A stretch of 64,000 nt of DNA from Thermoanaerobaculia bacterium (GTDB taxonomy: Bacteria > Acidobacteriota > Thermoanaerobaculia > Multivoradales > JAIOJS01): NCBI GenBank assembly GCA_030429235.1, contig JAUIDB010000003.1:124001-188000 (forward strand). Direction: 5' to 3'. A program made the position numbers and the translations under genes. Position 1 is the first letter of the stretch; every line of letters starts with the position of its first letter. The notes under the pieces are model-generated. The model saw only the letters and a list, made by a program, of their open reading frames with translations. It had not been told where the DNA came from and ran no database searches. Of the stretch, positions 50,350 to 63,999 are shown piece after piece.

Positions 50350-50568
50350 TCAGGAGTCCAAGCTGCAGGCGGGTCGAAAGCCGAGAGATCGCAGGACCAT
50401 CGCCGCCGGGCAGAAGCCGGTGAACGCCTGTTGGAAGAGGTTCACCCCTACGAAGACCGTGAACCAGATGAAACCGGGGTGGACGAAAACCGTCAACACC
50501 ACGGAGAGGAGAACCATCAATCCGGCAAAGGCCTCGACTGCGTGTTCCAAGGACATGCTGCGCTGCAT
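50350..50568 (-). CDS. DUF2892 family membrane protein
   Basis: 72 residues from the ATG at 50568, preceded by AAAGGA. It begins MQRSMSLEHAVEAFAGLMVL, has two TM helices and the segment LFQQAFTGFCPAAMVLRSLG. This is the DUF2892 (YgaP C-terminal-like) family with its FTGFCP motif. Family members are often coded beside rhodanese or sulfide-oxidising genes and beside ArsR-type persulfide sensors. It is the last gene of the RND operon, 20 nt after the outer-membrane gene, which ties the operon to sulfur metabolism. Confidence 0.85.
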   Translation of the reverse strand: MQRSMSLEHAVEAFAGLMVLLSVVLTVFVHPGFIWFTVFVGVNLFQQAFTGFCPAAMVLRSLGFRPACSLDS

Positions 50569-50588
50569 CGATTCGTTCCTTTCTGTGT

Positions 50589-51887
50589 TCAGTAGCTGAA
50601 CCGAAGCCGAAGGTAGGCGTTGGAAGCGTCCTCCAGCTGACCGAAGAAGGTGAAGGGGTCCTGCCCGCCGAGAACACTGGCCCCCAGCGTCAACGACCAC
50701 TGATCGTTGTGTCGATAGTGCAAACTGGGCCGGAAGTAGTAGTCCTGATCGCTCGGAGAGTAGAAGGTAAAGAGAGACACCGTGTAGCGGCCCAGGCTCG
50801 AGCGATAGGTCAACCGGTTGGTCAAGAGGTGCCGTACCTCGTCGGGGTCGAACCTCTGGTCGCGCGAGTTCCGACGCAGCGCGCGGTAATCGAGCGTCCA
50901 GTCGAGGGCGTACTGCAGACCGACTGTGACGCCCTTCCGCGCCTCCCACTCGTATCCCACGAGAGTGCGCAACTGATCGTTGGGTACCAGCGGATCGTCA
51001 CCGTCCCGGTCGTCGATCGAATCGTAGTAGGCCAACTCGGCGTGAAGCACTCCGACCCCGGCCGACTGTCGCAGACTCGCCCCCCACGAGTTCAGCGGGG
51101 CAAAGGTCGGGAGCAGACTCGTCGACGCAGTCTCCAACAGCGCCGAAGGACCCTTGAAGAATCCGTGGTAGCCGTAGAGCGCGAGTTCGCGCCCGCGGAC
51201 CGTACGGAACAGCCGGAGCGCGAACTCGGCCTGCTCGAAGGTGCGAGCCGGTTCGATCGCTGCAGCCGGAGGCCGCGGGGCGACGAGGCGCCCAGCCGGG
51301 CCGGAGAAGAAGGAGAACCGCTCTCCCGTCAGGTAGACATCCGGCGTGAAGACCGGAGTCCAGACCAGATCCAGGTTGACCTTGCCGAGGTAGGCGGTCA
51401 AGCGAACCGAGTCCGCCGGGGACTTGAGGTACTCGTCGTCGCGCCCCGCGAAGAAGGAGACGAAGTCCTTGGGGAAGAGATCGTTCAGAAACACCAGGTC
51501 TCCGGTGCCCCAGGTCTGGACCTGGCGGCCTAGCCTCAACTCGACCTTCGGCCCCAGCGAGGTGGAAAAACTGAGCTCTCGCACCGCGAGCCGCCACTCC
51601 TCCTCGACGGCGTCGTAGGCGAGGTCTCCGCTCCAGGCAATCGCACGGTCGCCGAACTGCTTCTCGGTCTCGCTGCGAACTGTCAGCTCGGCCAACGTCT
51701 CGCCATCCTCGAGCCTCGGATCCGCGTCCCAGCGGGTTCCGAACCCGGCCTCGACGAAGCCGGTCCAAACCAATCCCTCATCCTGGTCGCCCCAGTCGTC
51801 CTCCCAGAGATCCTCCTGAGCGGTGAGGACCGATGGTGCGAGCAGGAACCAGCTCGCCAGGAGCACGAGAAGAACGCGGTACTTCAC
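50589..51887 (-). CDS. Outer-membrane beta-barrel protein (DUF1302-like)
   Basis: A 432-residue protein with a signal peptide (VLLVLLASWFLLAPSVLTAQ) and a mature part of alternating amphipathic strands ending in YLRLRFSY, a classic barrel C-terminus with a terminal aromatic. Segments such as ELRLGRQVQTWGTGDLVFLN near 120 and KDFVSFFAGRDDEYLKSPAD resemble DUF1302 barrels found with MMPL-type RND exporters. It is 9 nt after the LolA-like gene. It is probably the outer-membrane part of the export route. The substrate is unknown. Confidence 0.8.
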   Translation of the reverse strand: MKYRVLLVLLASWFLLAPSVLTAQEDLWEDDWGDQDEGLVWTGFVEAGFGTRWDADPRLEDGETLAELTVRSETEKQFGDRAIAWSGDLAYDAVEEEWRLAVRELSFSTSLGPKVELRLGRQVQTWGTGDLVFLNDLFPKDFVSFFAGRDDEYLKSPADSVRLTAYLGKVNLDLVWTPVFTPDVYLTGERFSFFSGPAGRLVAPRPPAAAIEPARTFEQAEFALRLFRTVRGRELALYGYHGFFKGPSALLETASTSLLPTFAPLNSWGASLRQSAGVGVLHAELAYYDSIDDRDGDDPLVPNDQLRTLVGYEWEARKGVTVGLQYALDWTLDYRALRRNSRDQRFDPDEVRHLLTNRLTYRSSLGRYTVSLFTFYSPSDQDYYFRPSLHYRHNDQWSLTLGASVLGGQDPFTFFGQLEDASNAYLRLRFSY

Positions 51888-51896
51888 GGTCGCTCC

Positions 51897-52712
51897 TCAG
51901 TCCGTGGGACGCTGCAGCCATTGGCGCGGAGGGTTGCGAAGCGACCTCTCGGTGAATACCTCGGCCGGCAACCCCAGGTCGTACTTGATGTAGCGAAACT
52001 GCATGTCGGTCTGGCCGCCACTGAGCAGATCCGAGACCCGGCTGGCCGTCACGGTCGGGTTGCCGTCGATCTTTTCGACGGCGAGCACCTCGACCCGGCG
52101 GTAGATCTGACCCGCTTCGTTGTGGTACTCGATCTTCGTCGGCAGGAAGGTCGATCGATCGATCCACGTCACGTAGCGGTGAAACTCGACGTCAGCATCC
52201 TCCCGCGGCTCGTGTTCTAGAACGTAGTGGGTCTCGGTCGCCTCGACGAACCGGTGAAGGTCCTCGCTGGGACTCCGACCGGAGACGTCCTCGTAGAAGT
52301 AGTGGGCACCGACGAAGCTGGTTCGTTTGTCTCCGGCCGAGATGCGTTTCACCAGATCCAATCCGGGCAGATACAGCCAACGGTCATCATCTCGGTCGGC
52401 ATGCTTGTGCACCAAGAAGACGGTTCCCCGCACGTCGGAGGGCTGGCTGAAGGACACGAGGAACTTCTGATCCCCACCGTCCTCGACGTCGCTCCGCAAG
52501 ACCGTGAACTGCCGGCGCTGCTGGCGCCCCTGAGCGTCGGCGATGATCATTCGCACCTCCGACCGACCATCCGCACCCGCGTAGTAGGCGGCGAGATTGG
52601 CTCGGGCGACGATCGCGTCGGCGTCCTCGAGGTTCGACTGGGCGAGCCCCGAACTCCCGGTACCGACAAGGAAGAGAACTCCTAGGGTGAGAAGGATTCG
52701 TTGACGGGTCAT
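51897..52712 (-). CDS. LolA-like outer-membrane lipoprotein-sorting protein
   Basis: 271 residues from the ATG at 52712, which overlaps the RND stop (ATGA). The signal peptide is ILLTLGVLFLVGTGSSGLAQ. The mature protein shows the LolA/LolB-type fold found in DUF4292-like proteins: SEVRMIIADAQGRQQRRQFT, FLVSFSQPSDVRGTVFLV, DRWLYLPGLDLVKRISAGDK, FYEDVSGRSPSEDL and KIEYHNEAGQIYRRVE. Such proteins act as periplasmic lipid or lipoprotein carriers and often pair with MMPL exporters. Between an RND pump and a barrel, it is the likely periplasmic shuttle. Confidence 0.85.
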   Translation of the reverse strand: MTRQRILLTLGVLFLVGTGSSGLAQSNLEDADAIVARANLAAYYAGADGRSEVRMIIADAQGRQQRRQFTVLRSDVEDGGDQKFLVSFSQPSDVRGTVFLVHKHADRDDDRWLYLPGLDLVKRISAGDKRTSFVGAHYFYEDVSGRSPSEDLHRFVEATETHYVLEHEPREDADVEFHRYVTWIDRSTFLPTKIEYHNEAGQIYRRVEVLAVEKIDGNPTVTASRVSDLLSGGQTDMQFRYIKYDLGLPAEVFTERSLRNPPRQWLQRPTD

Positions 52713-55294
52713 GACGACACCTCCTGATTCAGTTGGGCCAAGGGCAGGTCGGGGAACAGCCACGGACCGGCCGCGGTCACCAGCGCCGGCAGCAGCAACA
52801 GTGTGGTGAGCCCCGAGATCGCCATGATCGCCGCCATGAACGAACCGACGGTGATGTAGGGCACCAGGGGGGCGAAGAAGAGCGGAGTGAATCCGATCGC
52901 GATGACGATGGCGTTCCTGGCGATCGCTCGCGCCGGCTCCTCGAACAGAGCCTCGAGTGCGATGCCTTGGGAACCCGACTCCCGCAGGAGGGAACGGGTC
53001 CGGGCGATGAAGTGGATGGCGAAGTCGACCGACAGCCCCAGCGTCAAGGCGGAGAGCACGGCGATCGGCATGTCGTAGTCCTTGCCGATCCAACCGATCG
53101 CGCCGTAGACCCCGACGATGGTCAAGGACAGGGGCACCATGGCGAGTAAGCCCAAACGCCAGCTGCGAAACAGGAGGGTCATGATCACCAGCACCGCCAC
53201 GAAGGCACCGAGCAGGCTCTTGAGCATGCCCTGGACCATCGACTGCTGCCAGACGACGTTGATGTAGGACTTGCCGGCCCAGGCCAACTCCAGACCGGCG
53301 GGCAGCGGCTGCGCCTCGAGTTCGCGATCGAGAGCTTGGAGGACCTGGCTCATGTCCTGGTTGTCGCCGCTCTTCAGCTGCAACCAGATCGCGGTCGAGG
53401 CGAAGTCCGGTGTCACCATGTGCCAGAGGTCCTGCGGCCGGTGGGACGACTGATACTGCAGGAGCGATTGGGCCACTGCCGGAGCCGTGTCCGGAACCCG
53501 GTACTCCTCGGCACGACCTCCCCGCAGTTCTCGGTGCACGACCTTGACGATGTCGGGCAGGGCATTGGTCTTACCGACCAGCCCGGTGGTGGCCAGCGCA
53601 GCCTGCAGCGATTCGATCGTCCGCAGACTCTCGGGACGCTGAAAGTAGCGGCCGGTACTCTGCGCCGACTCGGTCAGAGCGAGCAGTCGGGCCAGGCGAT
53701 CCTGGTCCTCGGGGTCCTCGACGTCGAACAGCGCGTCGTCGATCACCGCGATGAGGTCGCCATACCAGGCATCGAGGTCCTCGTTCGATAGCGCCGGGGC
53801 CGTCGCGAGTCGCGGCTCGATCAGCGCCGCGACCTCCGGTGCCAGCTCGCTCAGAGCGGCCTCGGCCGCCCGCTGGAACTCGGCCCGGGCCTCGTCGTTG
53901 CGAAACGTCAGCACCAGAAACGCGTCGTAGGTCCCCGCGAAGTGCTGGTTGAGGACCCGATCCGCCACCCGGATCGGATGGTTCTCCTTGAACCAGCGCA
54001 CCGGATTGTCGTTGATCTGAATCCGAGCCACTCCCAGAGCGCTGACGACAGCGAGGAGCAGGGCCACGCCGATGATCGGCTTGGCGTGGACCACAGCCGT
54101 GCGCCCCAGTCGCCGAAGGAGCCGCGCCAGGAGGCTCTCGCTCTCCAGCACTTCGCCCCGAGCTGCGAGTGCTTCCAGTGATGATGGAGACATGCGAACC
54201 ACGTAGGCAGGGATCAGGGTGATCGTCAACAGGAAGGCGACCAGAATTCCGAAGGCGACGAAGGCACCGAACACCTGCACCGGTGGAATAGGCGTGAGGA
54301 GCAACGAGAGGAAACCCAGGGCCGAGGTCGCGGAGGTAAAGAGCATCGGCGTGAACAACTCCTCGACGACGTTGCGAATCACTCGTCGCACGTCAGCCCC
54401 CGGACGGTAGCGATCGGCGAATTCCGACATGATGTGGACCGAGTCCACTACCGCGATCGGCATGAGGAAGATCGGGATCATCGAACTCATGATGTGCACC
54501 GAGAAACCGAGCGCGGTCAGTAGGCCCATGCTCGCGACGACGGTCGCCACGGCCACCAGCATCGGCACGGTGACGAGTTGCACGCTGCGAAAGAAGTAGA
54601 ACATCAAGAGGAAGATCATCAGACCGGCCAACGGCGCCGAGATCCCCATCTGGACGAACATATCGTGTCCGAAGGTATCCTCGGCCACCGGCAGGCCAGT
54701 GATATGGAAGTCGTCGTCCGAGTCCAGACCGGCCGCCAGGTCCCGGATCGCCAGGGAGAGGGGATGGCTCAGGTCCTTGCTGACGATGGGAACGTAGATG
54801 GCAGCCGCCCTACCGTCCCCCGAGACCAGGGTGTCCCGTAGGAGGGGAAGCCGGTCGACCTTGGCCCGCAGCTCCGCCGCTTGGTCCAGGGTCACTGGAG
54901 CTTCCTGCATCATCCACTCGAAACGGAGGACTCCCTCCCCCTCCTGCGAGATGTTGTCCGCCTGGGCCAGCGACATGAGGTCGGGCGGCACCACTCCTTC
55001 CAGCGCCAGAATGGAGTGACTGAGGCGATGGAGCGCCGCGAGCGACCGGGGGTTGTAGATTCCATTCGGATCCCGTTCGTTGACCACCCCGACCACGATG
55101 GCATCGTGGAGGGAGAACCGCCTCTCCACCTCGTTGTGGAAGAGGCGGTCGATCTGGGTCGACGGCAGCATGTTCTCGGGGTCGGTGTCGATCTGGGTCC
55201 GCCCCAGAAAGGCGCCGAGCGCCAGTACCGACAGCAAAACGATCCCATAGACGGCCCGGGGGCGACGGATGGAGAATTCGGTCAAGGTGGTCAT
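52709..55294 (-). CDS. MMPL/HpnN-type RND exporter
   Basis: An 861-residue RND protein with two repeats of one TM helix, a large periplasmic loop and five TM helices. TM1 is near 18-32 (GIVLLSVLALGAFLG). The first sterol-sensing-type bundle is about 215-360 (PLAGLMIFLLMFYFFRSVQL), with IPIFLMPIAVVDSVHIMSEF; the second is about 700-850, with LTLGLSVDFAIHFIARTRS. No tripartite AcrB signature is seen; the arrangement matches MMPL/HpnN lipid exporters driven by the proton gradient. It is the first gene of a four-gene operon that diverges from the ArsR gene and has a near-consensus promoter. Confidence 0.93.
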   Translation of the reverse strand: MTTLTEFSIRRPRAVYGIVLLSVLALGAFLGRTQIDTDPENMLPSTQIDRLFHNEVERRFSLHDAIVVGVVNERDPNGIYNPRSLAALHRLSHSILALEGVVPPDLMSLAQADNISQEGEGVLRFEWMMQEAPVTLDQAAELRAKVDRLPLLRDTLVSGDGRAAAIYVPIVSKDLSHPLSLAIRDLAAGLDSDDDFHITGLPVAEDTFGHDMFVQMGISAPLAGLMIFLLMFYFFRSVQLVTVPMLVAVATVVASMGLLTALGFSVHIMSSMIPIFLMPIAVVDSVHIMSEFADRYRPGADVRRVIRNVVEELFTPMLFTSATSALGFLSLLLTPIPPVQVFGAFVAFGILVAFLLTITLIPAYVVRMSPSSLEALAARGEVLESESLLARLLRRLGRTAVVHAKPIIGVALLLAVVSALGVARIQINDNPVRWFKENHPIRVADRVLNQHFAGTYDAFLVLTFRNDEARAEFQRAAEAALSELAPEVAALIEPRLATAPALSNEDLDAWYGDLIAVIDDALFDVEDPEDQDRLARLLALTESAQSTGRYFQRPESLRTIESLQAALATTGLVGKTNALPDIVKVVHRELRGGRAEEYRVPDTAPAVAQSLLQYQSSHRPQDLWHMVTPDFASTAIWLQLKSGDNQDMSQVLQALDRELEAQPLPAGLELAWAGKSYINVVWQQSMVQGMLKSLLGAFVAVLVIMTLLFRSWRLGLLAMVPLSLTIVGVYGAIGWIGKDYDMPIAVLSALTLGLSVDFAIHFIARTRSLLRESGSQGIALEALFEEPARAIARNAIVIAIGFTPLFFAPLVPYITVGSFMAAIMAISGLTTLLLLPALVTAAGPWLFPDLPLAQLNQEVSS

Positions 55295-55337
55295 GAGAGT
55301 CTCCGTGGAAGATCAGGCTTGTGCCATCGACTGCCTC

Positions 55338-55365
55338 AGTATATCACTTTTCACTAATTTAGCAA
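55338..55365 (-). promoter_or_regulatory. Promoter of the RND-LolA-barrel-DUF2892 operon
   Basis: On the minus strand TTGCTA (55365-55360) and TATACT (55343-55338) are 16 nt apart. The start point would be near 55331, about 36 nt before the RND ATG. The -35 lies inside the first 19-bp repeat (55354-55372), so a protein bound there would block RNA polymerase. Confidence 0.7.
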
Positions 55366-55402
55366 CAGCTATTCAATTGACTCCTAATTTAGAATCTGCT
55401 AT
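55354..55402. promoter_or_regulatory. Twin 19-bp direct repeats, probable ArsR operators
   Basis: Two copies of CTAATTTAG-N5-GCTAT lie at 55354-55372 and 55384-55402, exactly 30 bp apart, in an AT-rich island of a GC-rich region. The 5-nt centres differ (CAACA and AATCT) while the outer 14 positions are identical, the usual pattern for a protein-binding site. One copy covers the -35 of the RND operon; the other covers the spacer and -10 of arsR. This suggests one repressor controlling both directions. Confidence 0.65.
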
Positions 55403-55405
55403 ATT
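55377..55405 (+). promoter_or_regulatory. Promoter of the ArsR-family regulator gene
   Basis: TTGACT (55377-55382) and TATATT (55400-55405) are separated by 17 nt, close to the sigma-70 consensus and unusual for this GC-rich genome. Transcription would start near 55412, about 38 nt before the ATG at 55450. The second operator repeat covers the spacer and the first bases of the -10, so autorepression is expected. Confidence 0.75.
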
Positions 55406-55449
55406 TGTCGCCTAGGGAACCCCAGGGAGGCCCACTCCCCAACCGACCC

Positions 55450-55788
55450 ATGGCAGAATACGACCGACCACACGCCGATCAGCCCTCGCCCCCGCTGACC
55501 GAGATGCGGCGTCATGCGGCGAGCGCGGCCGGACTGATGAAGACCCTCGGCAACGAGAGTCGACTGTTGATCCTTTGTGCCCTCGCGGAAGGGGAACGCT
55601 CGGTGGGCGAACTCAACGAGGTCGTGCCGCTAAGCCAGTCGGCCCTCTCGCAGCAGCTGGCCCGGCTCCGACGGGACAAACTCGTCACGACCCGCCGAGA
55701 GTCACAGAGTATCTACTACTCGCTCGCCCCCGGCCCGGTCGACGAGGTGCTCCAACTTCTCCACTCGATCTACTGCGCGCCGGGCTAG
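55450..55788 (+). CDS. ArsR-family regulator, SqrR/BigR/YgaV-like persulfide sensor
   Basis: 112 residues from the ATG at 55450; a TTG at 55405 overlaps the -10 and is rejected. The winged-helix core includes LGNESRLLILCALAEGERS, the recognition helix SQSALSQQLARLRR (about 62-75) and the wing TTRRESQSIYYSL. Only two Cys occur, C43 and C109. In SqrR (C41/C107) and BigR (C42/C108) the same two positions, also 66 residues apart, form a tetrasulfide link on reaction with persulfides and release DNA. The arsenic (alpha3 CxC) and SmtB zinc ligands are absent. It probably represses itself and the divergent RND operon. Confidence 0.88.
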   Translation: MAEYDRPHADQPSPPLTEMRRHAASAAGLMKTLGNESRLLILCALAEGERSVGELNEVVPLSQSALSQQLARLRRDKLVTTRRESQSIYYSLAPGPVDEVLQLLHSIYCAPG

Positions 55789-57781: not shown

Positions 57782-60328
57782 ATGGTGCTGGTCCCTAGGG
57801 AGTCGCAACGACGCTACGAGCCGTGCCGCAGGCTCGGGTCGGTCCTGATCCTTCTGCTGGCCCTGGTCCCCGCCACGCTCGCCGCACGCGCGAAGCAGGA
57901 AGGGACCGTCGTCTCGACGGTGCCGGTACCGCTCCACTACCAGCTTCGGTGGCTCGACGAAGTGGCACCGTTCCTCACCACCGCGGAACGAACCACGTAC
58001 CTGGCGCTCGAGACCGCCGAAGCGAGGACCCTGTTTCAGCGGGAGTTCTGGCGCGCGCGGGATCCCACCCGCCGAACTCCGCTCAACGAATCGAAGGAAC
58101 GGTATCTTCACCATCTGGTCGCGATGCGCAAGGAGGGCCTCGACCCGGCATCCGACCGAGCTCGGGTCCGATTGCTGCTCGGCCCGCCAGACTTCGGCTA
58201 TCAGCACGGCGACTGCAGGCACCCGCGGGAAGATCCGTTCCCGGCCGACTGCTTCCGGGGACCCACCTTCGAAGTCGTCAGCTACGAGCCGACCGCGGAC
58301 CGCGAGGGAGTCGTCGCGGTCCTGGCGGCCGACCAGAGAGCTTGTCGCCTGGCCCCGGAACGAAAGCCGGTACGAATCCGACTGAGACCACGAGCCCGCT
58401 GCGCCACGGAGGGCACGCCCCAGCGAGTGCAGCAAGAGGTGCAGCAGGCTCTGGGGAACCGGACGGCTTGGCCAAAGCTCGCCGAACTCGGCCTGTCCGC
58501 CCCTGCCCGACAGGACTGGCTCGGCCAGTTCCCAGCCACGATCTCTAGGCACTCAGCGGTCATCCCGCAACTCGAAGTGCGATCGATCGCGGCGACCGGG
58601 GAAGGCAGGGGACGCCGGCAAGGTGACCCCGCTCTTCTCGAACTGAACGCGGCGCTGGTCGTCCCGCTGCGCGAGGAGTGGTGGCGTCACGGGAGCCCCT
58701 GGCGCAACCTGTTCGTGCGCGGCGACCTCCTCGTCAACCATCGACTCGTCGGAGGCTGGGAGACCCGTCGCACCCTCTTCTGGAGGCCCGAGGAGTCGTT
58801 GCAACTCCCGATCCGACTGCGACTGGTCGAAGGCGTCGCCCAGACCATCGTGATCCACGTCGAGGACGAGGCGGGTGAGCTCTACGAAACCGCGGCGTTC
58901 GTGATCCGGCCCTTCGGCGAACACTCCCCTCCGCCCGCGGCCTCAGTACCGCCGGCCACTCCCGCCGAGGTGGTCCCACCTCGGTTCGAAATCGAACCCC
59001 TACCCGGACTGCGCCTGGGAAACACCGAGGTCAACGTCGTGACGACCGGTTTATCGGTTGCCAGTGTCCAATACCTGCTCGACGGGGCGCTGGCAGGCCA
59101 AAGTGCAACACCGCCGTTCTCCCTCGACATCGACCTCGGACCCGTGCCGCTCGAACGGGCACTGCAAGCGCTCGGGTACGACGAAGCCGGCAACGTCATC
59201 GCCCGCGACGAGTGGACCCTCAACCCGGGAGCCAACCGCTTCCGGGTGCGGCTGGTCGATCTCTCGGACCAGGAAGCCGAGCAGTTCGCCCTGAGAGCGC
59301 GCGCGGAGGTACCGGTTGGAAGCACCCTCCAACGGCTGGAGCTCTTCGAGGGCGACGAGCTCGTCGCGATTCAACCGGCGCCGCGCCTGGAGTACCGACG
59401 TCCGGAATCGGAGGCGGAGGTTGCGGGCCGTGGCGTCGCGATCTTCCGCGTGGTGGCGCACCTAGCAGACGGACGATCTACCTCCGACACCAAACTGCTC
59501 TCTCGCAGCCCGATCGACGAGGTCGACACCGATCTGGTGGAGGTCTTCGCATCGGTCCGCACCGCGGAGGGAACTCCCCTCACCGACCTCCAGCCGCACG
59601 AGGCCACGGTACTCGAAGAGGGTCGGGAGCACTCACTGACCCACTTCGAGCGCGTCGAGAACCTGCCCCTCAACCTGGTGCTGTTGCTCGACGTCTCAGC
59701 CACCATGAAGGAGGAGATCGAAACCGTTCGAGAGAGCGCCGCGGCGTTCATGGAGAGTACCGTCCGCGAAGAAGACCGCGCCGCGTTGATCGCGTTCTCG
59801 GGAATCGGCTACGTCGCTGCGCCGTTCACCAACGACGTCCAAACCCTACGCGAAGCGAGTCATGCCCTCACGGCCTGGGGCAGCACGGCCCTCTGGGACA
59901 GCATCCAGGTGAGCCTCTACTACCTGTTGGGCCTCGAAGGGAAGAGTGCGCTCGTCCTGCTGAGCGATGGCGTCGACCAAGCGAGCAACATCGACTTCCG
60001 GGCTGCCCTCGAGTTCGCCGAGCGAACGGGGATCGCCGTCTACACCATCGGTCTCGGCCTACCCGTCGGCGAGGACACGGGTGTAGGCGGAGAAGCCCGC
60101 CGCCGCTTGCGCCGCCTGGCGGAACAGACCGGGGGCCGCTACTACCCCCTGGTCACGACCGAGGAGCTGCCCTCGATCTACCGCCAGATCGAGTTGGACC
60201 TCCGCTCGCAGTACCTGCTCGTGTACGAGAGCTCCGGCGCCCCGGACCCCGAGAGCTATCGGACCATTCAGGTGCGGCTGACTCGCTCCGGAGCCCAGGT
60301 GGAAGCGAAACCCGGCTACTACCCCTGA
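57782..60328 (+). CDS. Exported GWxTD and von Willebrand A domain protein
   Basis: An 848-residue protein with a signal segment (VLILLLALVPATLAARA). Residues about 45-170 form a GWxTD-type domain (YLALETAEARTLFQREFWRA, then DRARVRLLLGPPDFGY). The middle part is beta-rich (about 270-560). The VWFA-related domain is at about 590-848: LNLVLLLDVSATMKEEIE (MIDAS DxSxT, about 639), ALIAFSGIGYVAAPF, GKSALVLLSDGVDQAS, and VEAKPGYYP at the end. This fusion is characteristic of Acidobacteriota-like genomes. It is probably periplasmic and involved in protein or surface interactions. Confidence 0.85.
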   Translation: MVLVPRESQRRYEPCRRLGSVLILLLALVPATLAARAKQEGTVVSTVPVPLHYQLRWLDEVAPFLTTAERTTYLALETAEARTLFQREFWRARDPTRRTPLNESKERYLHHLVAMRKEGLDPASDRARVRLLLGPPDFGYQHGDCRHPREDPFPADCFRGPTFEVVSYEPTADREGVVAVLAADQRACRLAPERKPVRIRLRPRARCATEGTPQRVQQEVQQALGNRTAWPKLAELGLSAPARQDWLGQFPATISRHSAVIPQLEVRSIAATGEGRGRRQGDPALLELNAALVVPLREEWWRHGSPWRNLFVRGDLLVNHRLVGGWETRRTLFWRPEESLQLPIRLRLVEGVAQTIVIHVEDEAGELYETAAFVIRPFGEHSPPPAASVPPATPAEVVPPRFEIEPLPGLRLGNTEVNVVTTGLSVASVQYLLDGALAGQSATPPFSLDIDLGPVPLERALQALGYDEAGNVIARDEWTLNPGANRFRVRLVDLSDQEAEQFALRARAEVPVGSTLQRLELFEGDELVAIQPAPRLEYRRPESEAEVAGRGVAIFRVVAHLADGRSTSDTKLLSRSPIDEVDTDLVEVFASVRTAEGTPLTDLQPHEATVLEEGREHSLTHFERVENLPLNLVLLLDVSATMKEEIETVRESAAAFMESTVREEDRAALIAFSGIGYVAAPFTNDVQTLREASHALTAWGSTALWDSIQVSLYYLLGLEGKSALVLLSDGVDQASNIDFRAALEFAERTGIAVYTIGLGLPVGEDTGVGGEARRRLRRLAEQTGGRYYPLVTTEELPSIYRQIELDLRSQYLLVYESSGAPDPESYRTIQVRLTRSGAQVEAKPGYYP

Positions 60329-61942: not shown

Positions 61943-63643
61943 TTAGTAACTCGAAGACCTGTTCGCGCGTTCGCAGCAGGGAGAGCTCTCACTACCGCCT
62001 CCCCTCGTTTCCGCTTCGCCAGAGAGTTGATCGGGTCTCATGAAGAGAGGGTCGACACGCGCGAAATCCATCCCAACGTTGCCGTCCACGAGATCGAGTA
62101 CAGCCATTGCGATTGTGTAGTCGTCTGGTGGAAGTGTCGTCAAGAAACTCTGGACTTGGGCTTCACCAGCACTATCGCTCCCGACCGCAAGCACCCGTTC
62201 CTCGCTAGCCAGATCCAGCAGAACCCCGCTCGCGTTGTACACCGCAAAGAAGAACTCTACTCTTCCGGTTCTCTCTCCGTCGTCCGAGATCAAGCCCAAT
62301 CGCTCTGTCGGCACCGAAAGGGTCGACTCCAGGGCAAGCGAATTCCGCTCTGACCAAGACGCCTCGACTACCAGACTCACCGGCAGCTGGGTCGCGACCT
62401 TCGGAATGTTGGCCGTGGTTCGAAGCTGCTCGATCAGGCGATCCCTCGGTGTGACGTGGAGAATTCGCTTCGGATGGCGAACGCGGAACCGCCCCTTCCG
62501 TTTAACTCTCACCGCAATGCTGTGTTCCCGTCCGTCCGGGGCTCGAGCCACTTGATACCAGATCCGATAGTGGTTCTCCGTTGCATTCACGGCGAGCTCA
62601 ATACTTCTAGCAAGATCGTTGAGTGCCACATGCCACCCCCCCGTTTCTACCGCTAGAGAGTTCGCTACTGTCCGGTGCGTCGAGACCGCCAGACCAGGAT
62701 GCAGAGATGGGTTCCTCAACCCGGCAGCGTCGGAGGAATAGATGACGAAACCAGCGGTCGCCGCCTTCTGAGCGACGCTCTCCACGAGTTCGTGAATCTC
62801 CCTGCTATTGTCCCGCGCTCCCCCAGAGCCCGATGCCTCCGAAGACCCTTGCTGGTAGTTCAAGAGAAGGGTCTTGCTGCCTTCGAGGCTAGACCATCCA
62901 CTGAAGACCGCTTCGAGCGATTCAAAGAGACGTTGGGCTCGAATCCGATTGTCTCTATCCCTGGCGACAGCGGTGAGGTTGTCCAGGGTCGCTGAACCCC
63001 TTTCCCTCGCCGTGGGGTGAGTGGCCGCTCCGCTCGTCCCGGTCCCTCCCAGAATCGACCCGCCGCCCCAAGCTGTGACTGGTGTCCCAAGTCGCAACCC
63101 ATAGAGGGAATCGAGTGCGCCGGAGACCTTCCAGCGGTTGTTCGAGAAGGGAAGTAGAACGCGGGCCCCTGGGCCAAGCACGACCACAGACCAGTACGTG
63201 TTTGGGTCGGCTACCCCCTCCACAAACTCCTTGGAGCGTGACGCTACCTGGTAGAGACGAGCAGGCTCTAGACTCCCGAAGTCGAACCCGAGAACGAAGT
63301 AGCGAGGCAACGAGCCCTCACCGCTTGTAGTGCCCAATCGACTATCGAAGAGCCCCTCTTCCCCGGCTGGCTCGATCGAGCCAGCCACGACCCTCTCAAA
63401 GTGAGTTACTGGAACTGGTTCGCCGTCCTCGAAGACCTCAAAGTCGCCTACTCCAAGATCCATGACACCCTGGCCTAGTGGCCACTGCTGCACGGTCACA
63501 ACGATCGGAACGAGGTCTACGTGCAGTTCGTCACTAAACGTCGTCTCTTGGGCCAGACAAGGCAAGGCCGCCGCTGCCAAACAAGAAGCGATCCACAAGA
63601 TTGTCGACGATCGAGCCAGATCTGCCTCCAAGAAACCGAGCAC
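61943..63643 (-). CDS. Exported VWFA-related protein
   Basis: About 566 residues from the GTG at 63643, which places a signal peptide at the start (SSTILWIASCLAAAALPCLAQ). The frame is open to 63913, but the extra part runs into repeat DNA. Residues about 35-60 (HVDLVPIVVTVQQWPLGQ, LGVGDFEVFEDGEPVPVTHF) match the start of VWFA-related proteins of Acidobacteriota. The A domain is degenerate: YFVLGFDFGSLEP has no clear MIDAS DxSxS. The C-terminal half is beta-rich. Codon use is looser and less GC-biased than in the rest of the window. The start is uncertain. Confidence 0.7.
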   Translation of the reverse strand: MLGFLEADLARSSTILWIASCLAAAALPCLAQETTFSDELHVDLVPIVVTVQQWPLGQGVMDLGVGDFEVFEDGEPVPVTHFERVVAGSIEPAGEEGLFDSRLGTTSGEGSLPRYFVLGFDFGSLEPARLYQVASRSKEFVEGVADPNTYWSVVVLGPGARVLLPFSNNRWKVSGALDSLYGLRLGTPVTAWGGGSILGGTGTSGAATHPTARERGSATLDNLTAVARDRDNRIRAQRLFESLEAVFSGWSSLEGSKTLLLNYQQGSSEASGSGGARDNSREIHELVESVAQKAATAGFVIYSSDAAGLRNPSLHPGLAVSTHRTVANSLAVETGGWHVALNDLARSIELAVNATENHYRIWYQVARAPDGREHSIAVRVKRKGRFRVRHPKRILHVTPRDRLIEQLRTTANIPKVATQLPVSLVVEASWSERNSLALESTLSVPTERLGLISDDGERTGRVEFFFAVYNASGVLLDLASEERVLAVGSDSAGEAQVQSFLTTLPPDDYTIAMAVLDLVDGNVGMDFARVDPLFMRPDQLSGEAETRGGGSESSPCCERANRSSSY

Positions 63644-63878
63644 CTTGTTCGAGGCTCTCAGAAGAGCGGGGCGCCACGCATCGGCTTGTTCCTCGAAGCT
63701 CGACGACGTCCGCTCCCGCGTTCTGCGGACGACCACTAGGAGTGACAGTCGTCTCTGAAAAAGTGAAGCATAGACACTAAGTATGCAAGTCAAGTCCTGC
63801 ACATGGTATCTGATTGCGCGACGCCGAGAGCAAACAGGACTCGTGCAAGACGCCAGCGCAGGTAGCGCTACGATGCGC

Positions 63879-63999
63879 CCGGCGCGACCTCCGAATCCCT
63901 TCCGATTCTCCATTGCACGCCAGGGCGCGACCGTGCGGAAGGGATTCGCTACGAGCGGCGGAGCGCCAGCTCCGGCGCGACCTCCGAATCCCTTCCGAT
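63879..63999. repeat. Direct and inverted repeat cluster at the right edge
   Basis: A 28-nt unit starting CCGGCGCGACCTCCGAATCC occurs identically at 63879-63906 and 63972-63999. Its core CGAATCCCTTCCG (63892-63904 and 63985-63997) also occurs inverted as CGGAAGGGATTCG at 63936-63948, so the three copies can form long hairpins. The array is cut by the window end and may continue. No coding sequence is supported in 63914-64000, and 63644-63878 holds only the possible upstream region of the VWFA-related gene. Confidence 0.8.

Follow-up and report, generated by a model that had tools for sequence, protein, structure and literature searches.

The two 19-bp repeats lying between a divergently oriented arsR-like gene and an MMPL transporter gene are very probably operators for the dithiol repressor of the ArsR family encoded next to them, which would shut both arsR and the MMPL operon and would be released by sulfane sulfur or oxidation. 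Binding, repression and a persulfide-type inducer are inferred here from the conserved sites and promoters and from the family and cysteines of the regulator. The switch itself is well supported as a fairly ordinary one of a familiar kind; what deserves interest is the operator lattice together with the conserved, sulfur-linked MMPL operon.

Repeats and promoters in the arsR/MMPL intergenic region

In the window (the whole 64-kb stretch of DNA analysed), the arsR-like gene (+ strand, ATG at 55450) and the MMPL gene (- strand, from 55294) are separated by a 155-bp gap which holds both repeats. The pattern CTAATTTAG-N5-GCTAT is present on the + strand at 55354-55372 (copy 1, CTAATTTAGCAACAGCTAT) and 55384-55402 (copy 2, CTAATTTAGAATCTGCTAT), 30 bp apart from start to start, and the copies are identical at 16 of 19 positions and share all 14 specified letters. 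A 19-bp repeat at a spacing of exactly 30 bp had been described in the sequence-only reading of this DNA, and every particular of that description was correct. In place of nine letters, N5 and five letters, a putative dyad, WTTAG-N6-CTAWW, with an extra CTAA half-site upstream gives a better reading of the unit recognised. The dyad of copy 1 is TTTAG-CAACAG-CTATT (55358-55373) and that of copy 2 is TTTAG-AATCTG-CTATA (55388-55403).

The scan for sigma-70-like promoters revealed two, with 0.1 expected. The arsR promoter, TTGACT-17-TATATT, was located at 55377-55405 on the + strand and the transporter promoter, TTGCTA-16-TATACT, at 55338-55365 on the - strand, so the two near-consensus promoters proposed earlier in GC-rich surroundings were both recovered. 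The GC content was 48% in the intergenic region and 28% in its AT-rich core, in comparison with 65% in the window. According to the coordinates, copy 1 overlaps the -35 of the transporter (RND) promoter and copy 2 the -10 of the arsR promoter, in agreement with the initial description. A candidate third, weaker site, ATTAGTGAAAAGTGAT, may lie one 15-bp step away at 55343-55358 on the - strand, inside the transporter promoter at its spacer and the edge of its -10, and it is the sole exact match in the 64-kb window to the consensus (A/T)TTAG-N9-A(T/A) of NolR.

The search of the window with the CTAATTTAG-N5-GCTAT pattern and up to three mismatches returned just these two matches (shuffle mean 0.37), as did the search of the whole 4.85 Mb genome with up to two mismatches (three for the reversed control pattern). 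Dinucleotide shuffling produced a direct repeat of 16/19 in four of 2000 trials with the 155-bp intergenic region and in one of 5000 with the AT-rich core. The exact search of the genome with WTTAG-N6-CTAWW also returned these two places only (reversed control, one); because this pattern had been relaxed with the window in view, a stricter one was tried in other genomes. Both window dyads are degenerate, matching ATTAG/CTAAT at 8/10 and 7/10 letters. Taken singly, the better of them was equalled by 25 of 300 shuffles of the AT-rich region, and neither dyad is significant by itself.

Conservation of the sites and the 15-bp lattice

A lack of the repeats in relatives had been named as grounds for refuting the initial reading. 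The comparison with one same-genus genome, G001, revealed both repeats (CTAAATTAG...CTA and CTAATTTAG...CTA) at the same 30-bp spacing, both promoters at the equivalent positions (TTGAGA-17-TATATT for arsR and TTGCTA-16-TATAAT for the transporter) and the same divergent gene order. The repeats were identical at 15 of 19 (copy 1) and 16 of 19 positions (copy 2), i.e., 31/38, and the six half-sites described below at 23 of 24, versus 17/43 and 13/44 (30/87) in the leaders. Predicted sites are located on both divergent promoters in the window as well as in G001, which is the arrangement of a divergent autoregulatory switch. The suggestion that one regulator acts on both transcripts, through binding predicted from the sites, is supported by this conservation and by matches at arsR and transporter promoters elsewhere.

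For the wider relatives, 43 loci upstream of arsR relatives were collected in a genome-wide scan. ATTAG-N6-CTAAT was perfect in 12 of them (a score reached by 0 or 1 of 300 shuffles) and matched at nine of ten letters in a further 10 (0 to 14 of 300 shuffles), with six loci scoring 8 and 15 scoring 7 or less. The exact search for CTAAWTTAG-N6-CTA in 12 genomes of our own choice (about 46 Mb) gave 14 matches in eight genomes, compared with one for the reversed pattern, and each of the 14 fell in the upstream region of arsR or, in the case of Microbulbifer, immediately before the MMPL gene. In G111, which belongs to another family of the same phylum, two of the eight genome-wide matches to the strict dyad (one mismatch) fell within the 96-bp arsR/MMPL gap. 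The divergent arsR/MMPL order with dyads was also found in L103, L104 and L107 with less clear promoters, and scanning such more remote loci for promoters yielded no clean pair that overlaps the dyads.

The strict dyad ATTAG-N6-CTAAT with one mismatch had zero matches in the genome of the window, and its total counts in nine genomes never exceeded those of the reversed control (228 versus 234 in G069 and 14 versus 39 in G072). The strict dyad alone therefore defines no regulon, and the idea of a genome-wide regulon based on it was rejected.

The spacing of the sites was analysed in 16 representative loci of the 43, the window and the congener being excluded, and 82 offsets were examined. Relative to the best dyad, extra dyads were enriched at offsets of -15, +15, -30 and +30 bp (z 7.2, 5.8, 4.3 and 3.7, respectively), and offset +5 (z 7.6) overlaps the best dyad itself. 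The ±15 signals stand clear, and those at -30 and +30 are not far above the rest, since offsets +19, -18, -5 and +18 reach z of 3.1 to 3.7. Several loci of relatives spell TTAG-N6-CTAA-W-TTAG-N6-CTAA outright. The window is placed on the same lattice with six of eight half-sites (CTAA 55354, TTAG 55359, CTAT 55369, CTAA 55384, TTAG 55389 and CTAT 55399). Because the relatives carry arrays of ATTAG-N6-CTAAT on a 15-bp lattice, the 30-bp spacing of the window repeats looks like two 15-bp steps and the 9-mer CTAA-W-TTAG like the junction between neighboring dimer sites. In this way, a testable operator model recurring across Acidobacteriota and Proteobacteria is provided.

Two loci were observed with several dyads just upstream of an MMPL gene. 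In Pseudomaricurvus (L105, 5466-5497), two dyads are 16 bp apart and the arsR relative is encoded on another contig. In Microbulbifer (L109, 5880-5947), three successive dyads follow each other at 15-bp steps (GTTAGCATTCTCTAAAGTAGATAAATCTAATTTAGAAAGTGCTAAC), with a fourth further out.

The regulator, the proposed switch and its alternatives

The arsR-like gene (55450-55788, + strand) encodes a protein of 112 aa, which scored 45 bits against HTH_5 (PF01022, cut-off 22) and so belongs among the ArsR/SmtB winged helix-turn-helix proteins. Its AlphaFold2 model (pLDDT 85.7) has the expected order of helices and wing. The nearest solved structures were HlyU (E 1.9e-25 by sequence), followed by SqrR, NolR, BigR and YgaV, and the Foldseek search with the model returned the same set, with HlyU ranked first. 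The only cysteines, Cys43 and Cys109, are conserved without exception in the 30 aligned sequences; Cys43 is located within helix 36-46 and Cys109 ends the last helix (96-109), as expected of the dithiol group and as reported for BigR/SqrR (PMC8960804). BigR itself (NF040642) was the best NCBIfam match, with 86.6 bits against a cut-off of 155, and because this cut-off was missed, the protein was filed as a member of the dithiol group and not as BigR. Gln63 corresponds to the position of NolR Gln56, as judged from the match offset, not from a printed alignment. By its sequence, the regulator belongs to the dithiol HlyU/SqrR/BigR/NolR group, not to the arsenic/metal type, and the label of an arsenic-type regulator is replaced by that of a dithiol, sulfur/redox-type one. 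The reading of the repeats as a metal/arsenic operator was rejected, as the closest relatives of the protein are non-metal dithiol sensors and the two redox cysteines are its only ones.

In the proposed switch, each repeat would offer one dimer site (WTTAG-N6-CTAWW) and a neighboring CTAA half-site. Reduced dimers on two, perhaps three, lattice sites would block RNA polymerase at both promoters, one dimer covering the transporter -35 and another the arsR -10, so the reduced repressor would shut its own gene as well as the MMPL-LolA_like-porin-YgaP_TM operon. Once sulfane sulfur forms a bridge between Cys43 and Cys109, or the pair is oxidised in another way, the repressor would leave the DNA, both promoters would fire, and the regulator and the transporter operon would be made together. 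Related proteins are reported to behave in comparable ways: the footprint of YgaV lies on the sigma-70 promoter of its own gene, where it represses, sulfide relieving the repression (PMC9774250); a divergent intergenic region is shifted by SoxR into two bands (PMC10451225); HlyU responds to persulfides and not to peroxide (PMC10509353); and BigR from A. baumannii uses C34/C100 (PMC7315123).

The same ArsR protein could occupy these operators with a metal(loid) or plain peroxide as the inducer, in the manner of classical ArsR/SmtB sensors, and its score against the HTH_metalloreg model (83.9, cut-off 55) fits such an inducer. This is nevertheless unlikely, as the protein is nearest to HlyU, SqrR, BigR and YgaV, shares their cysteine pair and has no further cysteine, and the loci of relatives contain SQR-like flavoproteins, a Blh-like dioxygenase fragment, DUF302 and YgaP_TM genes and, by eye, rhodanese-like ORFs. 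A role of the regulator chiefly in activating the transporter operon or in countering its silencing, as was proposed for HlyU, seems less likely still: its closest solved relatives are indeed the HlyU activators, but both dyads overlap core promoter elements, the classical position of a repressor, and YgaV is reported to repress at its own promoter (PMC9774250).

It is very unlikely that the repeats serve a regulator from another locus, with arsR no more than a neighbor. The genome contains further ArsR paralogues (four matches in all) and the dyads of Pseudomaricurvus precede an MMPL gene with the arsR relative on another contig, but the dyad accompanies this clade of arsR genes, lying ahead of the gene itself, with 22 of 43 loci scoring at least 9/10. 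A likeness due to chance or derived from promoter letters (TATAT/TTG) in an AT-rich region can hardly be credited. Single dyads of such quality do arise by chance in a core of 28% GC, but the paired repeat was rare in shuffles (1/5000 and 4/2000), is kept with its spacing in the congener, and has no other place in the exact genome-wide searches.

HlyU of Vibrio cholerae and V. vulnificus resembles the window regulator in structure and has the same two cysteines. The footprinted V. cholerae site is reported to contain the same CTAATTTAG 9-mer on one strand, and its 17-bp palindrome, TAATTYAG-N1-CTRAATTA, is in another register than the window dyads (PMC4330345). The HlyU half-site TAATTTAG occurs twice in the window, once in each repeat, and the second half-site in the HlyU register is absent. 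In contrast to the arrangement proposed here, the HlyU site is an activator site about 180 bp upstream of its target, and the HlyU target genes are unrelated. BigR of Xylella, Agrobacterium and Acinetobacter is, like the proposed switch, an autoregulated dithiol repressor, but its known operons encode a sulfur transferase/dioxygenase and YeeE/YedE instead of an MMPL operon. The E. coli YgaV-YgaP pair shares a repressor acting on its own sigma-70 promoter and a YgaP-like_TM protein in the regulated operon; it differs in a site resembling ATTC-N8-GAAT, in the absence of MMPL genes and in its layout as one operon instead of a divergent pair.

NolR of Sinorhizobium, reported to recognise (A/T)TTAG-N9-A(T/A) (PMC12445080), has a consensus contained exactly in the ATTAG-N6-CTAAT dyad of the relatives, but it has no cysteines and regulates nodulation genes. 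Both window repeats have TTTAG and miss the NolR consensus by one letter, at the right end. SqrR and SoxR from Alphaproteobacteria are persulfide-bridged ArsR repressors, as is proposed for the window protein. The SqrR operator ATTC-N8-GAAT had no match in the intergenic region or the window, and the reading of the repeats as an SqrR-type operator was rejected on that account; this sequence was found in four of the 43 arsR relatives.

The transporter operon and its neighbors

The operon divergent from arsR is encoded on the - strand. It comprises genes for an MMPL/RND (HAE3-like) inner-membrane transporter of 861 aa (52709-55294), a LolA_like (PF17131) periplasmic lipid-carrier-like protein with an uncertain start codon (51897-52763), a DUF1302-like outer-membrane beta-barrel with a weak match below the cut-off (50589-51887) and a small YgaP-like_TM (PF11127) membrane protein from the family of the membrane part of E. 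coli YgaP (50350-50574). In G001 the order is MMPL, LolA_like, porin and a small protein resembling the YgaP_TM of the window. Orthologues of the transporter were found in four of 59 relatives, in three of 396 genomes of the phylum including its own and in eight of 20 genomes picked for having an arsR relative.

In the searches of the phylum, an ArsR-family gene adjoined the MMPL-LolA_like-porin operon in five of six distinct genomes (G000, G001, G046, G111 and, by eye, G410), and the ORF list of G015 contained no ArsR-family gene beside it. In G046 the ArsR domain is fused to a rhodanese domain according to Pfam (L091, 445-1122, + strand), the fusion being located upstream of the operon. Among the proteobacterial loci, Amphritea (L103) and Parashewanella (L104) have the operon and arsR in divergent orientation. 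In L102 and L106 an SQR-like flavoprotein is encoded ahead of the operon, and in L110 and L111 SQR-like, DUF302 or YgaP_TM genes accompany it. This SQR assignment is weak, since the best NCBIfam match is well below the cut-off. The search of three genomes, including that of the window, for the SQR-like protein was run without a positive control and returned no close match, and a dioxygenase-like query gave matches of 32-39% in all three.

The target operon is conserved and apparently undescribed, as no relevant paper on an MMPL-LolA_like-porin operon with an ArsR or sulfide link was found in targeted searches of the open-access literature. This orphan operon is tied to sulfide/persulfide-type genes (SQR-like, rhodanese, YgaP_TM and DUF302), which makes the substrate of the transporter group a tractable question.

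The lattice and the operon may be joined in one tentative reading. This group of regulators would use tandem operators on a 15-bp lattice with CTAA-W-TTAG dimer junctions, the dimers sitting on alternating helix faces (15 bp = 1.43 turns), so one array could span and lock two divergent promoters. The genes locked would form a conserved envelope-spanning MMPL-LolA_like-porin(-YgaP_TM/-SQR-like) system of sulfane-sulfur homeostasis, not described before and perhaps exporting hydrophobic sulfur species or damaged lipid.

The arsR and MMPL genes (window 50350-55788) look horizontally acquired, as judged from sequence identities. The closest MMPL outside the genus was found in a gammaproteobacterium (68% identity, versus 59% and 51% for the copies in the same phylum/order), and the close arsR relatives were mostly proteobacterial. 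Further along the window, the ORFs at 57782-60328 and 61943-63913 encode what we take, by eye, to be von Willebrand-factor-A-type proteins.
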